Assembly (NCBI GenBank): GCA_028278125.1
Contig: JANQEY010000233.1
Span: forward strand, 1 to 47,684
DNA from: a bacterium
GTDB lineage: Bacteria > Electryoneota > Electryoneia > Electryoneales > Electryoneaceae
Reading direction: 5' to 3'
Length of the DNA: 47,684 nt
Positions 17,140 through 45,472 of this stretch are shown here, piece after piece; position 1 is the first letter of the stretch, and each line of letters opens with the position of its first letter. Below the pieces are notes generated by a model. The model saw only the letters and a program-made list of their open reading frames with translations. It did no database searches and was not told the origin of the DNA. Position numbers and translations under genes: made by a program.

Positions 17140-17607
17140 TTACACGGCGAGAGAATGCTCTGAAGAAATATCACCCGCCTGGTTATCCCTGATCAGACGC
17201 CCCAGAAGCAAAATGTCGTCTTTGAGTTTCACCATTGAGGTTAACGGATCATTAAGGCAATCTTCCATGGAAAGTAGGAATACCTCTTCTGATAGAAAGA
17301 TCGAACCTTTATATGAATTCATCGGACGGAGGGCTGCTTTCTCGATTATCTGGTTACTGGTAACCGTCATTCTGTTCTGATTACTGTTGCTTTCCACCAG
17401 GTACTCAAGCAGCATCTCAACAACAATAAACAGACCTTCCACCCTTGCCATGAGGGCTGATTCAGTGTACTTGTGCAGAGGCAGGAGTCTTTTTAAACCT
17501 TCCAGGAAAGATTCAGGGGTTTTAGGATAATTGAAAAATGTCCTGGTGGCAGCTTCTACATTTTTAACCTGGGTGGAGACGATGTATTGATAGGACCGTG
17601 CATGCAT
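17140..17607 (-). CDS. Uncharacterised protein, tandem paralogue A
   Basis: I do not recognise this family. The 155-aa protein is predicted mostly helical and soluble, with no signal peptide. It is clearly related to the next upstream gene (17895-18332). Shared blocks are PE at 31-32, LLP, RVEG at 55-58, ALRP (about 92-95), NDPLTS (about 119-124) and a K-L-x-x-D-I helix at the end. The start is set at the ATG at 17607 because GGGAGG lies just upstream. The ATG at 17631 has no such site, and with the later start PE and RVEG fall at identical residue numbers in both paralogues. The Cys in the C-terminal block is not shared. Confidence 0.8.
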   Translation of the reverse strand: MHARSYQYIVSTQVKNVEAATRTFFNYPKTPESFLEGLKRLLPLHKYTESALMARVEGLFIVVEMLLEYLVESNSNQNRMTVTSNQIIEKAALRPMNSYKGSIFLSEEVFLLSMEDCLNDPLTSMVKLKDDILLLGRLIRDNQAGDISSEHSLAV

Positions 17608-17894
17608 GATGGCCTCCCGAATTTTACCCATCCCGTAACGAAGCCAGTTATGTTGCTCTATAATAAACTATGAACTCGTTTTGCCCATTATCTATGACCA
17701 CTCTCACATAATTACACTGAAAAGCTCTAATTCCCGTTCCTTCTAGGGATATAATACAATAAAAAAACCAAATACACCAAAAAGTGTTTGAAAATGGTAA
17801 TCTAGACTGAATTTGGGTTTAATCGTTTGTTCAGAATTGAATAATAAGGCATAAACTACAGCAATAATAATCTCTTAGGAAACGCAAGGTTCAG

Positions 17895-18332
17895 CTATTT
17901 ATTATCCTTCTGCAGTTTTCTCAAGAGATCGGAGAGGGAAACAATATCTTCTTCCAGTTTTGTCAGAGAGGTACGTGGATCATTAAAAAATCCATCACGG
18001 GTCATTAAACTGCTGACAGGTTCACGAGATCCGGTTTTCCAGTGATAATGGCTTAAAGGACGTAAATCAGCTTCCTGTTCAATAAGCTCACGATCCCACG
18101 ATTGATCTGAATCCAGGTTAATTATGAAGTTTATTATGCATTCCGATACGTGATAAAATCCTTCAACACGTTTTTTCCATGTATCCGGGGTAGATTTTTC
18201 TATTGGCAGGAGATCTTTTAACAGTTTGACGAATTCTTCAGGATTTTGTTTAACATGAATATAGAGTTCCGCGGATGTATCCAGTTTTTCAACTAAGTTT
18301 TCATCCAGGTATGTATAGTCTTCACCAAACAT
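17895..18332 (-). CDS. Uncharacterised protein, tandem paralogue B
   Basis: Not recognised. The 145-aa acidic, mainly helical, soluble protein is paralogous to the gene at 17140-17607. It shares PE (31-32), LLP.EK.T (41-48), RVEG (55-58), DLRP (89-92), NDPRTS (117-122) and KLEEDI (125-130). A longer reading from 18437 is open, but the extra residues look like non-coding sequence. The ATG at 18332 is preceded by a GGGGG-containing site at normal spacing, which matches the paralogue's register. About 290 bases separate the two genes, so each may have its own promoter. Duplication followed by divergence is inferred. Confidence 0.8.
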   Translation of the reverse strand: MFGEDYTYLDENLVEKLDTSAELYIHVKQNPEEFVKLLKDLLPIEKSTPDTWKKRVEGFYHVSECIINFIINLDSDQSWDRELIEQEADLRPLSHYHWKTGSREPVSSLMTRDGFFNDPRTSLTKLEEDIVSLSDLLRKLQKDNK

Positions 18333-18454
18333 ATTATTGACCCCCGTTGCATTTTGACGACATAAAATTGTTATAATTACTATGGAATATGATTCCCTAT
18401 CATAAAAAAAATCTGGATCATATTGCAAGCATTTCAACAGTAATTAAAAAAGAA

Positions 18455-18491
18455 CTCGAAAAAAAGCTTCGCATCATTTATGATGCGAAGC
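18455..18491 (-). terminator. Strong terminator of the M24 peptidase gene
   Basis: A perfect 11-bp stem (18466-18476 with 18481-18491) has a 4-nt loop and is followed on the minus strand by seven T. It lies 24 bases past the peptidase stop codon, so it isolates that gene from the paralogue genes downstream. Confidence 0.9.
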
Positions 18492-38784: not shown

Positions 38785-41700
38785 TCATTTTACTGTTGCA
38801 AGCATCGATCTTAATCCAGTAGACAATGACATAATATTTTTCCTGTATTTTTCTTCTTCACCCGGTATATCCGCTACGTCATAGACGACGCCAGGTGCGA
38901 TGAAAACCAGCTTTTTCATTACAGAATCAACCTTCCACGCTTTCTTCAATGCCAGGCCGTAAAGTCTTAACTGGTGATCATATCCTTCTTTTGCAATCAG
39001 CTTTTCAATATTATCCTTCGGAATATCATTTGTTTTATAATCAATTACGGTAATGCCTGTTTCATTCTTGACGACGAGATCTATTCGACCTTTCATGATT
39101 ACATTCTCTAACCTGAGTTGTATCGGAAACTCCCTGAGTGCGTATAGATCATAATTATGAAGCCCGATTTTTCTACCATTTTCCAGCAATTGTTCAATCT
39201 TTTTCTGAATACCGGGAATTTCACCCTGGTCAATATCGAATCTTCTTACTAAACTTGAAAATTCGTTTTTTATCTCTTCCCAACTACATCCCGGGCCAAA
39301 CAACTGGTAAATATTGTGCAGTATGTTCCCGATTATGACAGCAGTTTCCGGATTATTGCCTGAACCGGTTTCTGTTGCGACATATAATTCCTCATCTTTC
39401 TCGTCACCACCAGCATTTGAATCAAGCAATGATAATAATTTCTCATCTGTGGGATTAGCTACATACCCGGCGAAAATCGTAATCGGAATAATCAGTTTGT
39501 CCTTTTCCGGAGGAGGTGAAAGGTTTACAGATGGATCGATACCCTCTTCCAATTCCGGCCAGGGATCAAGATAGTTTCGAATTTTACTTTTTGGAGATAA
39601 TCCTGCCTGTTTACTTTCTTCATCGTTAATATTGGTCAACAGAATATTATCATCGGGACATGTAAGTGATCTTTCTTCCTTATCATATCGAAGATCGAAC
39701 GCATTAATCCAGTTGAACAGGTGGCTCATCTCGCTGGCTTTTATGTCCTTACTTTTCTTCAGCGGGATTTTTGTGGTCAAAAGTAGTTTGTCTTTCGCAC
39801 GGGTGGCTGCCACATACATAAGTCTCTTTATCTCAGCTTTGGTTTCCAGCGGCGACAACTCATTTTCCATTAACCTTAAATAATGGGTATTGTCATCCTT
39901 TGGGACTAAATCCTTAAGAATTGGGTATGTGAACGGGTAATATTCATCAAATTCTACCAGGATGTTACCTCGTTCCTTCGTTTTGGTTGAGCTTGAATCA
40001 AGATCAGTCAGGATTACAAATGGGAACTCCAATCCCTTTGCGCCATGTATAGTTAGAACACGGACGCAATCGTCGTAACTGTCAAATATATCCTCATCAA
40101 TTCCTTCGTCTTCATATTTTGCTAATTCATCCAGGTGTTCACTTACTTCTCTGATTGTTACAATTCCCGTTTCTCCCATATCCCTGGTGCGGGAAATCAA
40201 GTGGTAAATATTGTCTATCCTTCGTTTTCCATCCCTGCCAACAGAGTATGCCGCTAAAGCACCACTTTCAACATTTGCATATAGCAATAGCTCTGAAGGA
40301 GTTAATTGACTTGCCTTTTGCTGTAAATCCTGCCAGAACCTGAGAGAATAATTCAGCAATTGAATTTCCCTGTTGCTGAAACAATTATCAGGCCATTCAT
40401 CAGGATAATTTCCTTCAGCCAGTTTTGACCAAGCCTTCTCAACGGACTGTTTCTTAAACCAGATTGCTGCGACAACATTGTCGGGAAGATTCATGAATGG
40501 ACTTCTCATTACACCCGTCAAGGCAATTTTATCCCTGGAATCTGCGAGAGCCGCCAGCAGGTTCATTTGGTCACGAACTTCCTGGTTATCGAAAAACTTT
40601 GATGCCTTTCCCACGATAAAGGGTATAGCATAATCGTTTAAAGCCTTCAACAGCTGGAATATCTTCGTTCTCGTGGGGATGAGGATTGCTATATCCGAGG
40701 CATTGAAACCATCACCTGTTTGTGTTTTTTTATCCAGCTCCTGCCTTATCCTGCTAGCGATATACCTGTAAATATCATTATCCGGTTTTTCAATCCCGTA
40801 AGCGAATTCACATGCATTTCCGACTCCAGGATAATCTCCTTTTCCAACCTTCAGTGGTTGAGGATCAGCTTCAAAGGAATATCTTTGCTTATTATCCGGT
40901 TTCAGCAATCTGTCGAACGCAACGTTTAACGGGTTAATCAAGTTCGAACTGGATCTGAAGTTTTCCCTCAATACAATACAATTTGTATCATCATTAGGGG
41001 TGGCTGAATCATCAGAGAACAGCTCCCTTGCCTGGTTAACAACAGTTACATTCGCATTCCTGAATCCGTAGATAGACTGCTTTTCATCACCAACAAGAAA
41101 CAGCTTGTTTTTGTCCGGTTCGCCATCATCACGAAGAACAAGTAGCCTGAAGATTTCCCATTGAATATTTGATGTATCCTGGAATTCATCAATTAGCAGG
41201 AATTTTATCGATGAATTGATCTCACGCCTTATATGCGGGTATTTCAGCAGGAGGTACAGTGCATACTGCTCCAGTTCGTTGTAGGTGATTCTTGTTGGCG
41301 GACTGGAATCATCGAGGAAAAGGGGCAGGGCAAAACGTGACAAAGATTTCAGAAGACCTATGAATTCGTCATAATTGTAGTTCACTACTCCAGGCATTTC
41401 ACCTGAAATTATGTTATTCAACTTCAAGTGTAACAGGTTTATATATTCCCTGACACGCACCGGATCTTTGCTAATAATCTCAAGGGCGTTCTGGAAGGGT
41501 ATATCGGAAAGAATATTCCTTAAAAGTTCTTCGATATTATCCCGCTTTTCGAGTACTTCAAGCAGTGATCTTAAATCAGGATCATGATCAATTGATTTTT
41601 GCTGAATATAGTCACGTATTTTACCAAGATTCTCGTAGTTGACTGCACCCTCGACAGCAAATGCCGGATCTACTCCTGCTTCGAAGGGATAGGCTCGTAA

Positions 41701-42027
41701 AATCGTAGAGCAAAGGTTATGAATAGTCCCTATTCTTGATCCGTTAAATAATTCAAGCTGTCTCTGCCAATACTCCTCCCTACCCTGGTCATTCTGCAGT
41801 TTATATTCAATGTTCTCATAAACCTTGCCTTCAAGCTGTGCAGCAGCTTTACGTGTAAAGGTGACAGCAACAATTTCGCCGGGATTCGCTAAACCTTCTT
41901 CCAGTATTCTGACATACCTCAATGCAAGGACGGTAGTTTTTCCTGATCCCGCACCAGCCAGTACAACCTTGCCGCTGGACAGATCCAGCGCCTTTTCCTG
42001 GGATTCTGTCAGCTTAAAGCCGTTCAA
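38785..42027 (-). CDS. addA: AddA-type helicase-nuclease subunit
   Basis: ATP-dependent helicase and nuclease of the AddAB double-strand-break repair complex. The helicase motifs are a Q-motif Gln10, Walker A GAGSGKT (25-31), VAVTFTRKAAAQLE, LLIDEFQDTSNIQWE (motif II), LRENFRSS, VRVLTIHGAKGLEFPFVIL (motif V) and LMYVAATRAKDKLLLT (motif VI). A C-terminal PD-(D/E)XK nuclease follows, with RIDLVV...ITVIDYKTND. The length of 1080 aa fits AddA. The start is TTG at 42027, overlapping the addB stop (TTGA) and preceded by GGAGA, so translation is coupled. Its partner AddB is encoded just upstream. Confidence 0.95.
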   Translation of the reverse strand: MNGFKLTESQEKALDLSSGKVVLAGAGSGKTTVLALRYVRILEEGLANPGEIVAVTFTRKAAAQLEGKVYENIEYKLQNDQGREEYWQRQLELFNGSRIGTIHNLCSTILRAYPFEAGVDPAFAVEGAVNYENLGKIRDYIQQKSIDHDPDLRSLLEVLEKRDNIEELLRNILSDIPFQNALEIISKDPVRVREYINLLHLKLNNIISGEMPGVVNYNYDEFIGLLKSLSRFALPLFLDDSSPPTRITYNELEQYALYLLLKYPHIRREINSSIKFLLIDEFQDTSNIQWEIFRLLVLRDDGEPDKNKLFLVGDEKQSIYGFRNANVTVVNQARELFSDDSATPNDDTNCIVLRENFRSSSNLINPLNVAFDRLLKPDNKQRYSFEADPQPLKVGKGDYPGVGNACEFAYGIEKPDNDIYRYIASRIRQELDKKTQTGDGFNASDIAILIPTRTKIFQLLKALNDYAIPFIVGKASKFFDNQEVRDQMNLLAALADSRDKIALTGVMRSPFMNLPDNVVAAIWFKKQSVEKAWSKLAEGNYPDEWPDNCFSNREIQLLNYSLRFWQDLQQKASQLTPSELLLYANVESGALAAYSVGRDGKRRIDNIYHLISRTRDMGETGIVTIREVSEHLDELAKYEDEGIDEDIFDSYDDCVRVLTIHGAKGLEFPFVILTDLDSSSTKTKERGNILVEFDEYYPFTYPILKDLVPKDDNTHYLRLMENELSPLETKAEIKRLMYVAATRAKDKLLLTTKIPLKKSKDIKASEMSHLFNWINAFDLRYDKEERSLTCPDDNILLTNINDEESKQAGLSPKSKIRNYLDPWPELEEGIDPSVNLSPPPEKDKLIIPITIFAGYVANPTDEKLLSLLDSNAGGDEKDEELYVATETGSGNNPETAVIIGNILHNIYQLFGPGCSWEEIKNEFSSLVRRFDIDQGEIPGIQKKIEQLLENGRKIGLHNYDLYALREFPIQLRLENVIMKGRIDLVVKNETGITVIDYKTNDIPKDNIEKLIAKEGYDHQLRLYGLALKKAWKVDSVMKKLVFIAPGVVYDVADIPGEEEKYRKNIMSLSTGLRSMLATVK

Positions 42028-45000
42028 TTGTTATCTCCATCGGAAATACTCTTGAATTCCTGGAAGCCAAGACTATAGACTTTGTCCAGGAATTCTTTCC
42101 CCAGGGAATCCTCTCGTTGGTGAAAAATATTGATATCACGCCTGCAGATATTAAAAAACGGGCAATAATTCTGTTTTGGCGATGAATTGCATAGTTTATA
42201 ATGCTGGCTCAGGGGATGATGAAAACGTCCTTCCCTGATTGCTTCTTGAATTTTTACTATCCGTTCAACAAGGTCTTCCTTATTCAATTCATGATCTTTT
42301 CGAGGCCATTTACCGGTTTTGCTCACTTTACCTTCATTCCGGATGTGATAATAGCACGCGAAGTCAATATTCTCGGAATCAATACTATGATCCGCGAGGT
42401 ATTTTTCCAGTGCAATCGTATAAACAAACAGTTGGAAGCTCAAACCATCCTTGACATCCTTCAAAGTAGAAAGCGAAGATCCTCCAACTTTATAATCCCA
42501 CACTCTCCACTTGCCTTTATCCGACAATGAAATCCGGTCAATTATACCGGAAAGTGAAACTTCATTCCCTTCATTTGAAACAGAGAACTTGCCACCAATA
42601 AACTCATTATCCTCTACGCCCGTTTGGGTGCCAAATCCCACCTCGGTGAATTTTATTGTTTCACCGGGAAGTTCCTTTATTTCAAATTTTAGAACGGCAC
42701 CGAGTATGCCAACTTCACCTCTAATATCAGCTAAACCGGCCAGGATTTTCTCTTTCTGATATTCCCAGAAAAGATTATCGAAAGGATAATTCTTAAAAAG
42801 TTTTCCGGCTATTTCCAGCATCAACTTCACGGTCAGATCGGGATCCTCGGAGATAGAAGGTTCCGGGTGCAATTCTTCGCCTAACCGTTCCACTAAAGTT
42901 GAAAGAATACTGTGAACAAGGGATCCTTTCTGCCGGGCGTCAATATCATCTATCAATTCGGGTTTCTCATCCAGTTTAAGGACATCCCCGAAAAGGTATC
43001 TCAACGGGCATTTAGCGTAGGAATCCAAACGACTGGCTGATAAAGGTTTTGATATTACCCGGTCACTTATAATTTTTCCAATTTTTGAGCTGCCAATATA
43101 TCCCTCAAATTTACTCAATGTTTCCGGCTGATTCCTGAGGAGTTGAATCCGTATGGCATTATAAGCCTGTGACCATTTTGAGCCGAATCTATCGGTAACC
43201 TGATCGTTGTACAGGGCAGCGGACAATCTTCTTCTTCCCCGTTCAAATAACTCATGTGAATCGAGGTCAGAACCTGAAGCAGGAAGTAGGTCAAGGGGCG
43301 AATAGAAATTTTTATCTTGAGGAAAACCGGAAATCTTCAAGCCGGCATTGATTAAAGATTTTATAACTGGACTGATTGTTTCACCTGAAGTACCGTCAAT
43401 CCTGCAGGGTGCGGATAACCAGAGATTTTCTGCGGATAGTATAGTCTCCAGCATTAACGCACGGCTCTCTGCCAGGTAATCATGTTTAATTTGTGAGTTC
43501 GCGGAAAACGGCTCGAGCAGATCCACGGGTGTACTACGTGGCCATTTTTTTGACGATAATCCGAGGAAAAATATGTGTTCTGTTCGTTGCCCACGGATGT
43601 CCAACGGTCCCGTAACATTGATACCACCACGAAATTTCGAATCTGTTCTATACCGCTTTTCCTTGAGTGAAATTTTCAGTAATTCACTATACCGTTTAAG
43701 ATGGCATTTTTGGACACCGGAAATCCGAAGTGAACGATCAACCAGTTTCAGGACAAGATTGAAAGAACTCCAAACCTGTTGTATTTCCAGATCATTATCG
43801 AATCTTTGGTTCAGTTCCGACCGGTTAAAATCTGCAATATTCAGTTTAAAAAGTAGATCCAGCATCCATTTTTTAATCTCTTCCGGGTTGTTTTCTGGCT
43901 TAAATTTAAGGATGTCTTTTGCCAGGATTTCAAACTCCCGGTAAGCCTCTCTGATCCATGCCGTTAAGTTCTCTTCTATCTCTATCGGACAATCAGAAAT
44001 AATATCTTTATCTGAAGAAGTAAGACCGGAACTGCCAGGTTGCTGGTAATCAAAGACCAGTTTTTTCAGCGGTTTTGACCAGGTTTCATTGAGATCGTTT
44101 GAACCACCGGAAATACGTGCGATTTTCAGCAGGGTATCAAGGTAGGTGACTTTATCTATTGAGTTGAGATTTTTTCCATAAGACGCATAGGGATTTGTCA
44201 GGACAGAGATAACATCATCCGCCGGCAGTTTTCGAGACTTCAGCTGAAACAATTGTAATACCAGGTGGATTAACGGATGAGTAGCAAGCGATTTACCAAG
44301 CCTGATATCAGAAGTTAGCCCAAAATATGGAAAAATCTCCTCGATGAGAGTTGAATATTCTTTCAGGTCGGTACAGACAACAGACACCTGGTTTTCGGTC
44401 AAATTTCTGATCCTTTGCAGTTCAGCAATTTTCCCGGCCACCGCCTTTACCTCCTCAACCTGGTTTCTGAATCCTTCGAGGTAAATTTGAGTTTTATCCA
44501 GCTTATCCTGGTTAATCTTTTCTGTAGTGAAGAGTACGTTCGCTAACTTTGATCTTCGTTCTGAAGAGGGGATAGTTTTTTCTTTTATGGTTGGATTCTT
44601 TTTCCATCTCTGGTAGTCATTTTCACCCAGCTTTAACGCCGGGCCGGGATTGGTAAGATAATCAACCAGGACAATCGTTTCCTGAACTTTACTGCTTAGT
44701 TTTGAAATTAAATCGTTTAAAGAGCTGGCCTGTGGACCGAGTGTATCAATTACAAGTAACTCCGGACCGTTTTTAGGGGAACCATTTAACCGCACTGAGG
44801 CAAATGATGGAAGGGCGGCTATATCAACCAGGTTTTCATCATTCAGCAAATCCTGGTAACGATCAAAGATTTCAACCATCCAGGGATATTTTGATCTGAG
44901 CTTCGATCTTAGAGATTTTTCCTCCTGAACCTGTTCCCAGTAATAAACCGTCTTTTTTATCCAACCCGGACTGGAATATGATCCAAGATTTGATACCCTG

Positions 45001-45302
45001 GTCACATCCTGAAAAATCTGCTGGAAAAGGAGTTCACGTACATCGGTGTCTACGGTTGGTTGTGATATCCCTGAAGCTTCGAGGACAAATCCGGCAAGTT
45101 TTCCAACAGGCATAACTTCAATCCCGGCGATAACCCCCCCGGAGAATTCGTGCAGAGATGTTTCTATCCTCTCAACACGTCTGATTGTATCTACCACATA
45201 CCAGGTTAATCTACCAGATGCTGAAGTATTCAGTACTCTATCAAGTAACTTGACTTTCCTACCGGAACCCGGCAGTCCAGTCCATAATTCGATCGATCCC
45301 AT
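42024..45302 (-). CDS. addB: AddB-type nuclease subunit
   Basis: Second subunit of AddAB, with an inactive-looking helicase fold and a C-terminal nuclease. The N-terminus is a Walker A-like loop GLPGSGRKVKLL, in which the usual Lys-Ser/Thr is Arg-Lys. The nuclease shows GIIDRISL... and VWDYKVGG. Four Cys that could hold an iron-sulfur cluster are present: one in YAKCPLRYLFG and three in KLCNSS...YCPFFNICRRD. The C-x5-C end is canonical, but the preceding Cys is separated by 8 residues instead of 2. The frame is open to 45452; the ATG at 45302 fits the start of the conserved domain, giving 1092 aa. It overlaps addA. Confidence 0.9.
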   Translation of the reverse strand: MGSIELWTGLPGSGRKVKLLDRVLNTSASGRLTWYVVDTIRRVERIETSLHEFSGGVIAGIEVMPVGKLAGFVLEASGISQPTVDTDVRELLFQQIFQDVTRVSNLGSYSSPGWIKKTVYYWEQVQEEKSLRSKLRSKYPWMVEIFDRYQDLLNDENLVDIAALPSFASVRLNGSPKNGPELLVIDTLGPQASSLNDLISKLSSKVQETIVLVDYLTNPGPALKLGENDYQRWKKNPTIKEKTIPSSERRSKLANVLFTTEKINQDKLDKTQIYLEGFRNQVEEVKAVAGKIAELQRIRNLTENQVSVVCTDLKEYSTLIEEIFPYFGLTSDIRLGKSLATHPLIHLVLQLFQLKSRKLPADDVISVLTNPYASYGKNLNSIDKVTYLDTLLKIARISGGSNDLNETWSKPLKKLVFDYQQPGSSGLTSSDKDIISDCPIEIEENLTAWIREAYREFEILAKDILKFKPENNPEEIKKWMLDLLFKLNIADFNRSELNQRFDNDLEIQQVWSSFNLVLKLVDRSLRISGVQKCHLKRYSELLKISLKEKRYRTDSKFRGGINVTGPLDIRGQRTEHIFFLGLSSKKWPRSTPVDLLEPFSANSQIKHDYLAESRALMLETILSAENLWLSAPCRIDGTSGETISPVIKSLINAGLKISGFPQDKNFYSPLDLLPASGSDLDSHELFERGRRRLSAALYNDQVTDRFGSKWSQAYNAIRIQLLRNQPETLSKFEGYIGSSKIGKIISDRVISKPLSASRLDSYAKCPLRYLFGDVLKLDEKPELIDDIDARQKGSLVHSILSTLVERLGEELHPEPSISEDPDLTVKLMLEIAGKLFKNYPFDNLFWEYQKEKILAGLADIRGEVGILGAVLKFEIKELPGETIKFTEVGFGTQTGVEDNEFIGGKFSVSNEGNEVSLSGIIDRISLSDKGKWRVWDYKVGGSSLSTLKDVKDGLSFQLFVYTIALEKYLADHSIDSENIDFACYYHIRNEGKVSKTGKWPRKDHELNKEDLVERIVKIQEAIREGRFHHPLSQHYKLCNSSPKQNYCPFFNICRRDINIFHQREDSLGKEFLDKVYSLGFQEFKSISDGDNN

Positions 45303-45472
45303 GTTCAAAAGGTAGCATCTTATATTGGTATAAAAAACAGGTCGGGTGCTGAACGGCAAATTCTTCTGTGGGTCATATTGACGGTTTACCTGTATTCCCG
45401 GTCTTCTCATCACTTGCGACACGATGTAGCGAATAATACCTTTCGGAATCACGCTTTCAAAGGAGATTTTCC

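Follow-up and report, generated by a model that had tools for sequence, protein, structure and literature searches.

Introduction

Two genes of no recognised family, here called A and B, lie in tandem on contig JANQEY010000233.1, whose 47,684 nucleotides are the stretch analysed (the window), and their arrangement raises the question of whether they encode equivalent partners of a protein that works in pairs or, instead, one family member and a copy that has taken another course. A first-pass annotation of the letters had taken them for divergent helical paralogues and had suggested paired or heteromeric partners. Our analysis bears out the paralogy, the absence of a known family and, by prediction, the helical fold, but not the regular pairing: A and B are full-length paralogues within an unannotated, lineage-restricted family that is well defined, pairing is the exception in this family rather than the rule, and A has selectively lost the signature loop of the family while keeping its scaffold, so that the two are not equivalent partners. 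As to function, the reading that we tentatively favour, with a probability of roughly 30%, is that B would be a lineage-specific protein binding a ligand or a partner, encoded beside a fast-diverging paralogue, A, that has been stripped of the site.

Paralogy and family membership

A single BLASTP comparison aligns the two proteins over 142 columns with 31% identity and 54% positives (E 2e-22), and their likeness is therefore not a matter of chance, as had been proposed. The lengths counted from ATG codons with Shine-Dalgarno support (Table 1) agree with both translations, and the blocks noticed at the outset, namely PE at residues 31-32, RVEG at 55-58, LRP, NDPxTS and KLxxDI, are all found in A as well as in B. 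Searches with the single sequences retrieved four relatives for B and, for A, none but itself, and a profile of six rows gathered 87 clusters that include both (weakest E 1.3e-18); none of these clusters carries a Pfam domain, and the few source names among them are 'hypothetical protein', two coming from metagenome-assembled genomes of Calditrichaeota.

The signature common to the family reads RVEG, LRP..YHYxTGSREP..TRDDYLNDP and KLxxDI, and the alignment of the 87 members shows LLPIEK and RRVEG followed by R..IV..A.LKPLSHYHYLTGSREP...LTRDDYLNDP.TALVKL.DDI. With A and B set aside, the remaining 85 clusters, a set which was gathered by profile words and is thus biased towards the signature, share nine residues without exception (in the numbering of B, which is used throughout): E57, G58, G101, S102, R112, D114, D118, K125 and D129. 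They are mostly charged or loop-type residues and not core hydrophobics, which is what a site would be expected to show. B has the full scaffold (RVEG, KLxxDI) together with 14 of the 16 signature residues, the changes being Y98W and D114G; A keeps 10 of the 16 and belongs to the family by full-length homology, without the loop.

That neither protein falls into a recognised family was upheld by profile searches of A, B and all 87 members, which returned nothing above chance. Neither protein has a match in Pfam up to E 10 or in PADLOC up to E 1, and the matches in NCBIfam (a ClpS model for B, at E 0.012, scoring 15 bits where the cut-off is 117) and in PHROGs (best E 0.021) are at the level of chance. 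Over the 87 members the commonest Pfam match, SIR2_2, concerns nine of them with a best E of 0.041, the best E among 25 of the 40 Pfam families matched is 0.0056 (DUF190), and one transporter model of NCBIfam matches 15 members with a best E of 0.0048, all of which are unconvincing. The family profile found nothing better than E 0.13 among the sequences of the PDB; neither phages (searched with B) nor viral contigs yielded a relative, and the one match in plasmids (searched with member P0003), at E 0.3, was taken as chance.

The family occurs, with 24 copies, in 18 of the 39 genomes of one candidate phylum, and a scan of 291 relatives of genome G019, nearly all of the 39 included, recovered exactly these 18. 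Three of the first six loci are filed under Calditrichaeota bacterium (one of them AABM5.125.24), and AABM5-125-24 is equated with Candidatus Electryoneota in an excerpt of PMC10439189; on the strength of this one record title, the phylum that carries the family is probably this uncultivated lineage of the FCB group. The M24 peptidase encoded next to B has homologues in G019 and G021 with which it shares 71% identity, and a locus of G005 has three further genes in common with the window, which therefore probably derives from the same phylum.

As counted in these fragmentary assemblies, 14 of the 18 genomes are single-copy, two (G006, G021) have two copies on separate contigs and two have three copies, on separate contigs in G022 and in tandem in G004. 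With a tandem array in this one genome only, the expectation that homologues regularly come in pairs fell away. The G004 array (locus L034, 8773-10426) consists of three family genes upstream of a sigma-70 gene, two with all 16 signature residues and the third with R81K. Both copies of G006 (L037, 8986-9426; L050, 9001-9480) have R103 and E104 replaced (N/V and S/V), with the other signature residues intact, and one copy of G022 (L048, 544-1191) extends at its C-terminus into a tail of about 60 residues that is acidic and of low complexity.

Loss of the signature loop in A

The divergence of A is not evenly spread. Among the 40 columns conserved in at least 80% of the members, B keeps 32 and A keeps 25, and the difference lies in one segment: before residue 90 each keeps 10 of 13, within residues 90-114 B keeps 13 of 15 and A only 5, and after them B keeps 9 of 12 and A 10. 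Outside the segment A thus retains 20 of 25 conserved positions and B 19. The loop of A has changed by substitution, and no frameshift was seen in the other frames. Both genes are coding in their own frame, where codon statistics score +0.165 for A and +0.240 for B with all five other frames negative for each; the flanking SIMPL and M24 genes score +0.145 and +0.246. The ATG of A (17607-17605) is preceded by a Shine-Dalgarno-like GGGAGG (17618-17613), and that of B (18332-18330) by GGGGG (18345-18341).

These observations bear on the possibility, doubtful in our view, that A is a duplicate which has become redundant and is decaying, with an open frame, a loop drifting without selection and no partnership with B. 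Its branch is indeed the longest in both trees, at 3.39 changes per column in a quick one of 110 rows and 1.98 in a more careful one of 29 rows, its changes are concentrated in the presumed functional block, and the signature generally varies within the clade to which the window belongs, as the copies of G005, G021 and G022 illustrate. Simple decay should nevertheless strike all parts of a protein equally, whereas A keeps the conserved positions outside the block, is full length, uses codons as its neighbours do and has a Shine-Dalgarno-like sequence; moreover, G021 carries a similarly stripped copy (L052, 7103-7549), in which Y98R, S102F, R103S, E104A, R112L and D118A bring the number of lost signature residues to six, equal to that of A, with no more than three lost in any other copy. 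This second stripped copy lies in an MmgE/glycosyltransferase context, and the near-canonical copy of G021 is on another contig.

An arrangement that we consider improbable is an obligate heteromer of A and B in which a composite site would have been split from a single-gene ancestor, B providing G101, S102, R103 and R112 and A providing D114. B lacks only D114 of the nine invariant residues and A lacks G101, S102 and R112, so that together they hold all nine, and both the tandem arrangement and the scaffold retained in A would suit such a partnership. The complementarity was, however, noticed after the fact; D114 is gone from the only copy of G008 and R112 from the only copy of G005, the stripped and near-canonical copies of G021 stand on different contigs, and B and A are separated by a gap at which one transcript is not required.

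The trees conflict as to the origin of A. The quick one places A outside the clade of B, whereas the careful one unites A and B in a single clade of 13 rows (support 99/98.8) that also holds copies of G005, G019, G021 and G022, and within it pairs A with L052 at a support that is not significant (81/89). The approximately unbiased (AU) test does not reject a tree constrained to group A with B (p-AU 0.585), whose likelihood is 2.22 above that of the free search. Taken together, these results do not distinguish between an older split of A and its duplication in tandem at this locus.

Predicted fold and putative binding site

The model of B is all-helical (pLDDT 87.7, pTM 0.84), in agreement with the helical nature anticipated for these proteins. 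In it the signature loop, with R81, YxY, TGSRE, TR, D114 and D118, lies between two long helices that bear E57/G58 and K125/D129. We infer that this loop may form a conserved patch of charged and aromatic residues that would bind a ligand carrying a phosphate or, alternatively, a single fixed protein partner. B, as a stand-alone gene, would perform the ancestral role, and A would be a duplicate whose scaffold was kept and whose binding loop was lost; having kept the scaffold, A has probably kept the ability to fold and to associate, and is likely to be a fast-evolving variant without the site that either modulates the ancestral function or has left it.

Several observations weigh against this proposal. 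The model of B has no significant structural match, and near-canonical B itself carries D114G. The invariance in the 85 clusters is partly a product of their collection by profile words, and among the 26 copies from the genomes and the window all 16 signature residues are present in only eight, 16 copies missing one to three of them and A and L052 six each (none of the 26 lacks E57, K125 or D129). Single-copy genomes are not exempt, since G005 has R81E and R112E and G008 has E104I and D114Q, so some parts of the signature may matter less than their conservation suggests.

Decidedly improbable, in our assessment, is a DNA-binding regulator in which RxxIVxxAxLKPLSHYHYLTGSREP would be a divergent helix-turn-helix (HTH) of the XRE type, possibly autoregulatory or linked to a sigma factor. 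By eye, the A..L..G...P spacing equals that of XRE domains (PF01381, PF12844), resembling the course from helix 2 to helix 4; HTH_19 matches two of the 87 members weakly (best E 0.11; residues 77-108 of P0049 at E 0.14), 7 of the 22 loci have a sigma-70 gene close to the family gene, and an inverted repeat overlaps the promoter-like site of B. Profile similarity to HTH_3 or HTH_19 is nevertheless lacking: hhalign against a profile of 28 XRE domains (from 30 loci, L062 and L077 having been left out since stops interrupted the domain at the assumed offset) aligned one column with a probability of 0.2%, and 500 column-permuted controls had a higher mean than the best gapless profile score (p 0.83). 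Furthermore, the isoelectric points of B (4.85) and A (5.63) are acidic (the median of the 87 is 7.95), the supposed HTH is preceded, in the predicted helical pattern, by a helix of 25 residues and followed by an insert, and the sigma linkage is limited to one clade and treated as inherited synteny there; the sigma-regulator version has been set aside. As to an HTH fold, Foldseek gave no significant match, although a fold absent from its listing is possible.

Still less probable is a HEPN-like RNA-binding or RNase domain. The family resembles the HEPN superfamily in its predicted helical bundle of similar size and in a weak similarity by VIA-align; it differs from it in that the Rx4-6H motif, which according to an excerpt of PMC3710099 nearly all HEPN families conserve, either strictly or in part, with some lacking it, is not conserved here, R91 and H97 occurring together in 14 of the 87 rows and K..H in 58. 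A type VI secretion system immunity protein (PDB 4nsr, 4noo, 4nso), which we take to be TsiV3, has 13% identity, and its Z score stays within the usual range of the tool for helical bundles.

Genomic context

The 24 copies of the genomes lie in 22 loci, and neighbours were listed around the family ORF (open reading frame) in 19 of them (all but L035, L043 and L051), counted as BLAST clusters of which one or two members each were run against Pfam. The family gene mostly stands alone, most gaps measuring 100-450 bp (extremes of 10 bp downstream in L052 and 707 bp in L045), with small ORFs in between in a few loci and, by eye, TTGACA/TATATT-like pairs upstream of several family genes. No one neighbour recurs in every clade, a pattern consistent with a gene that acts on its own. 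The sigma-70 gene is on the same strand in L031-L034, L036, L037 and L045, with a MarC-type gene intervening in L031 and L032; genes flanking the family gene encode Por-sorted secreted proteins at 11 loci, an M49-like protein at six and an MmgE/PrpD homologue at four, two of which also have a glycosyltransferase.

In the window B is upstream and A downstream, between the M24 peptidase gene (PF00557, E 2e-34) and the SIMPL gene (PF04402, E 4.3e-25); Pfam confirmed both assignments, and these neighbours reveal no function, as had been noted. No family gene stands beside the M24 homologue in seven loci of six relatives, compared without the G022 fragment, and both G021 contigs end within the M24 gene. 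A single common operon is not evident, given the hairpin between the M24 gene and B and the 287 bp between the stop of B and the ATG of A. Such terminator-like sites number 9 in the region against 3.3 (standard deviation 1.8) in shuffles, and promoter-like sites of the type listed number 12 in 4 kb against 8.9 (standard deviation 2.6).

Table 1. Coordinates in the window of genes A and B, their loop blocks and nearby signals (stop codons included for the genes)
Feature	Coordinates	Strand	Description	Basis
Gene A	17140-17607	minus	155 aa; diverged paralogue without the signature loop	translation, BLASTP to B
Gene B	17895-18332	minus	145 aa; near-canonical family member	translation
Signature block of B, residues 90-119	17976-18065	minus	LRPLSHYHWKTGSREP...TRDGFFNDP	alignment of 87 members
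Corresponding block of A, residues 93-121	17245-17331	minus	YHYxTGSREP...TR part replaced	
Terminator-like hairpin, M24 gene/B intergenic	18466-18491	minus	11 pairs, 6 G-C, then seven T	
Promoter-like site upstream of B	18399-18428	minus	TTGCAA, 18 nt, TATGAT; weak	

The inverted repeat over the promoter-like site, ATATGAT-N23-ATCATAT (18387-18423), is a possible operator; the pattern, picked after being seen, is present a single time in the window, where 0.02 would be expected. Scans of the window for Rfam families and tRNA genes gave no match. Elsewhere in it (38785-45452) two long overlapping ORFs of 1080 and 1142 aa look, judged by eye alone, like helicase-nucleases of the AddA/AddB type.

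Discussion

In being unannotated and restricted to an uncultivated lineage, the family resembles the FESNov novel families, of which 404,085 are counted in an excerpt of PMC10849945. The synapomorphy rule quoted there asks for a coverage above 90% with a specificity of 100%, and the present family falls short of it at the level of the phylum, covering 18 of 39 genomes (46%). As an orphan family it is one among very many, and its interest is mainly for uncultivated phyla and modest otherwise.

For its phylum, of which we know no cultured member, these findings add an unannotated family with near-invariant charged residues, and an alignment, a good model and natural variants that have lost the loop are at hand for the design of biochemical tests. 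Should the conserved patch prove to be a centre of binding or catalysis, the family would represent a function particular to this lineage.
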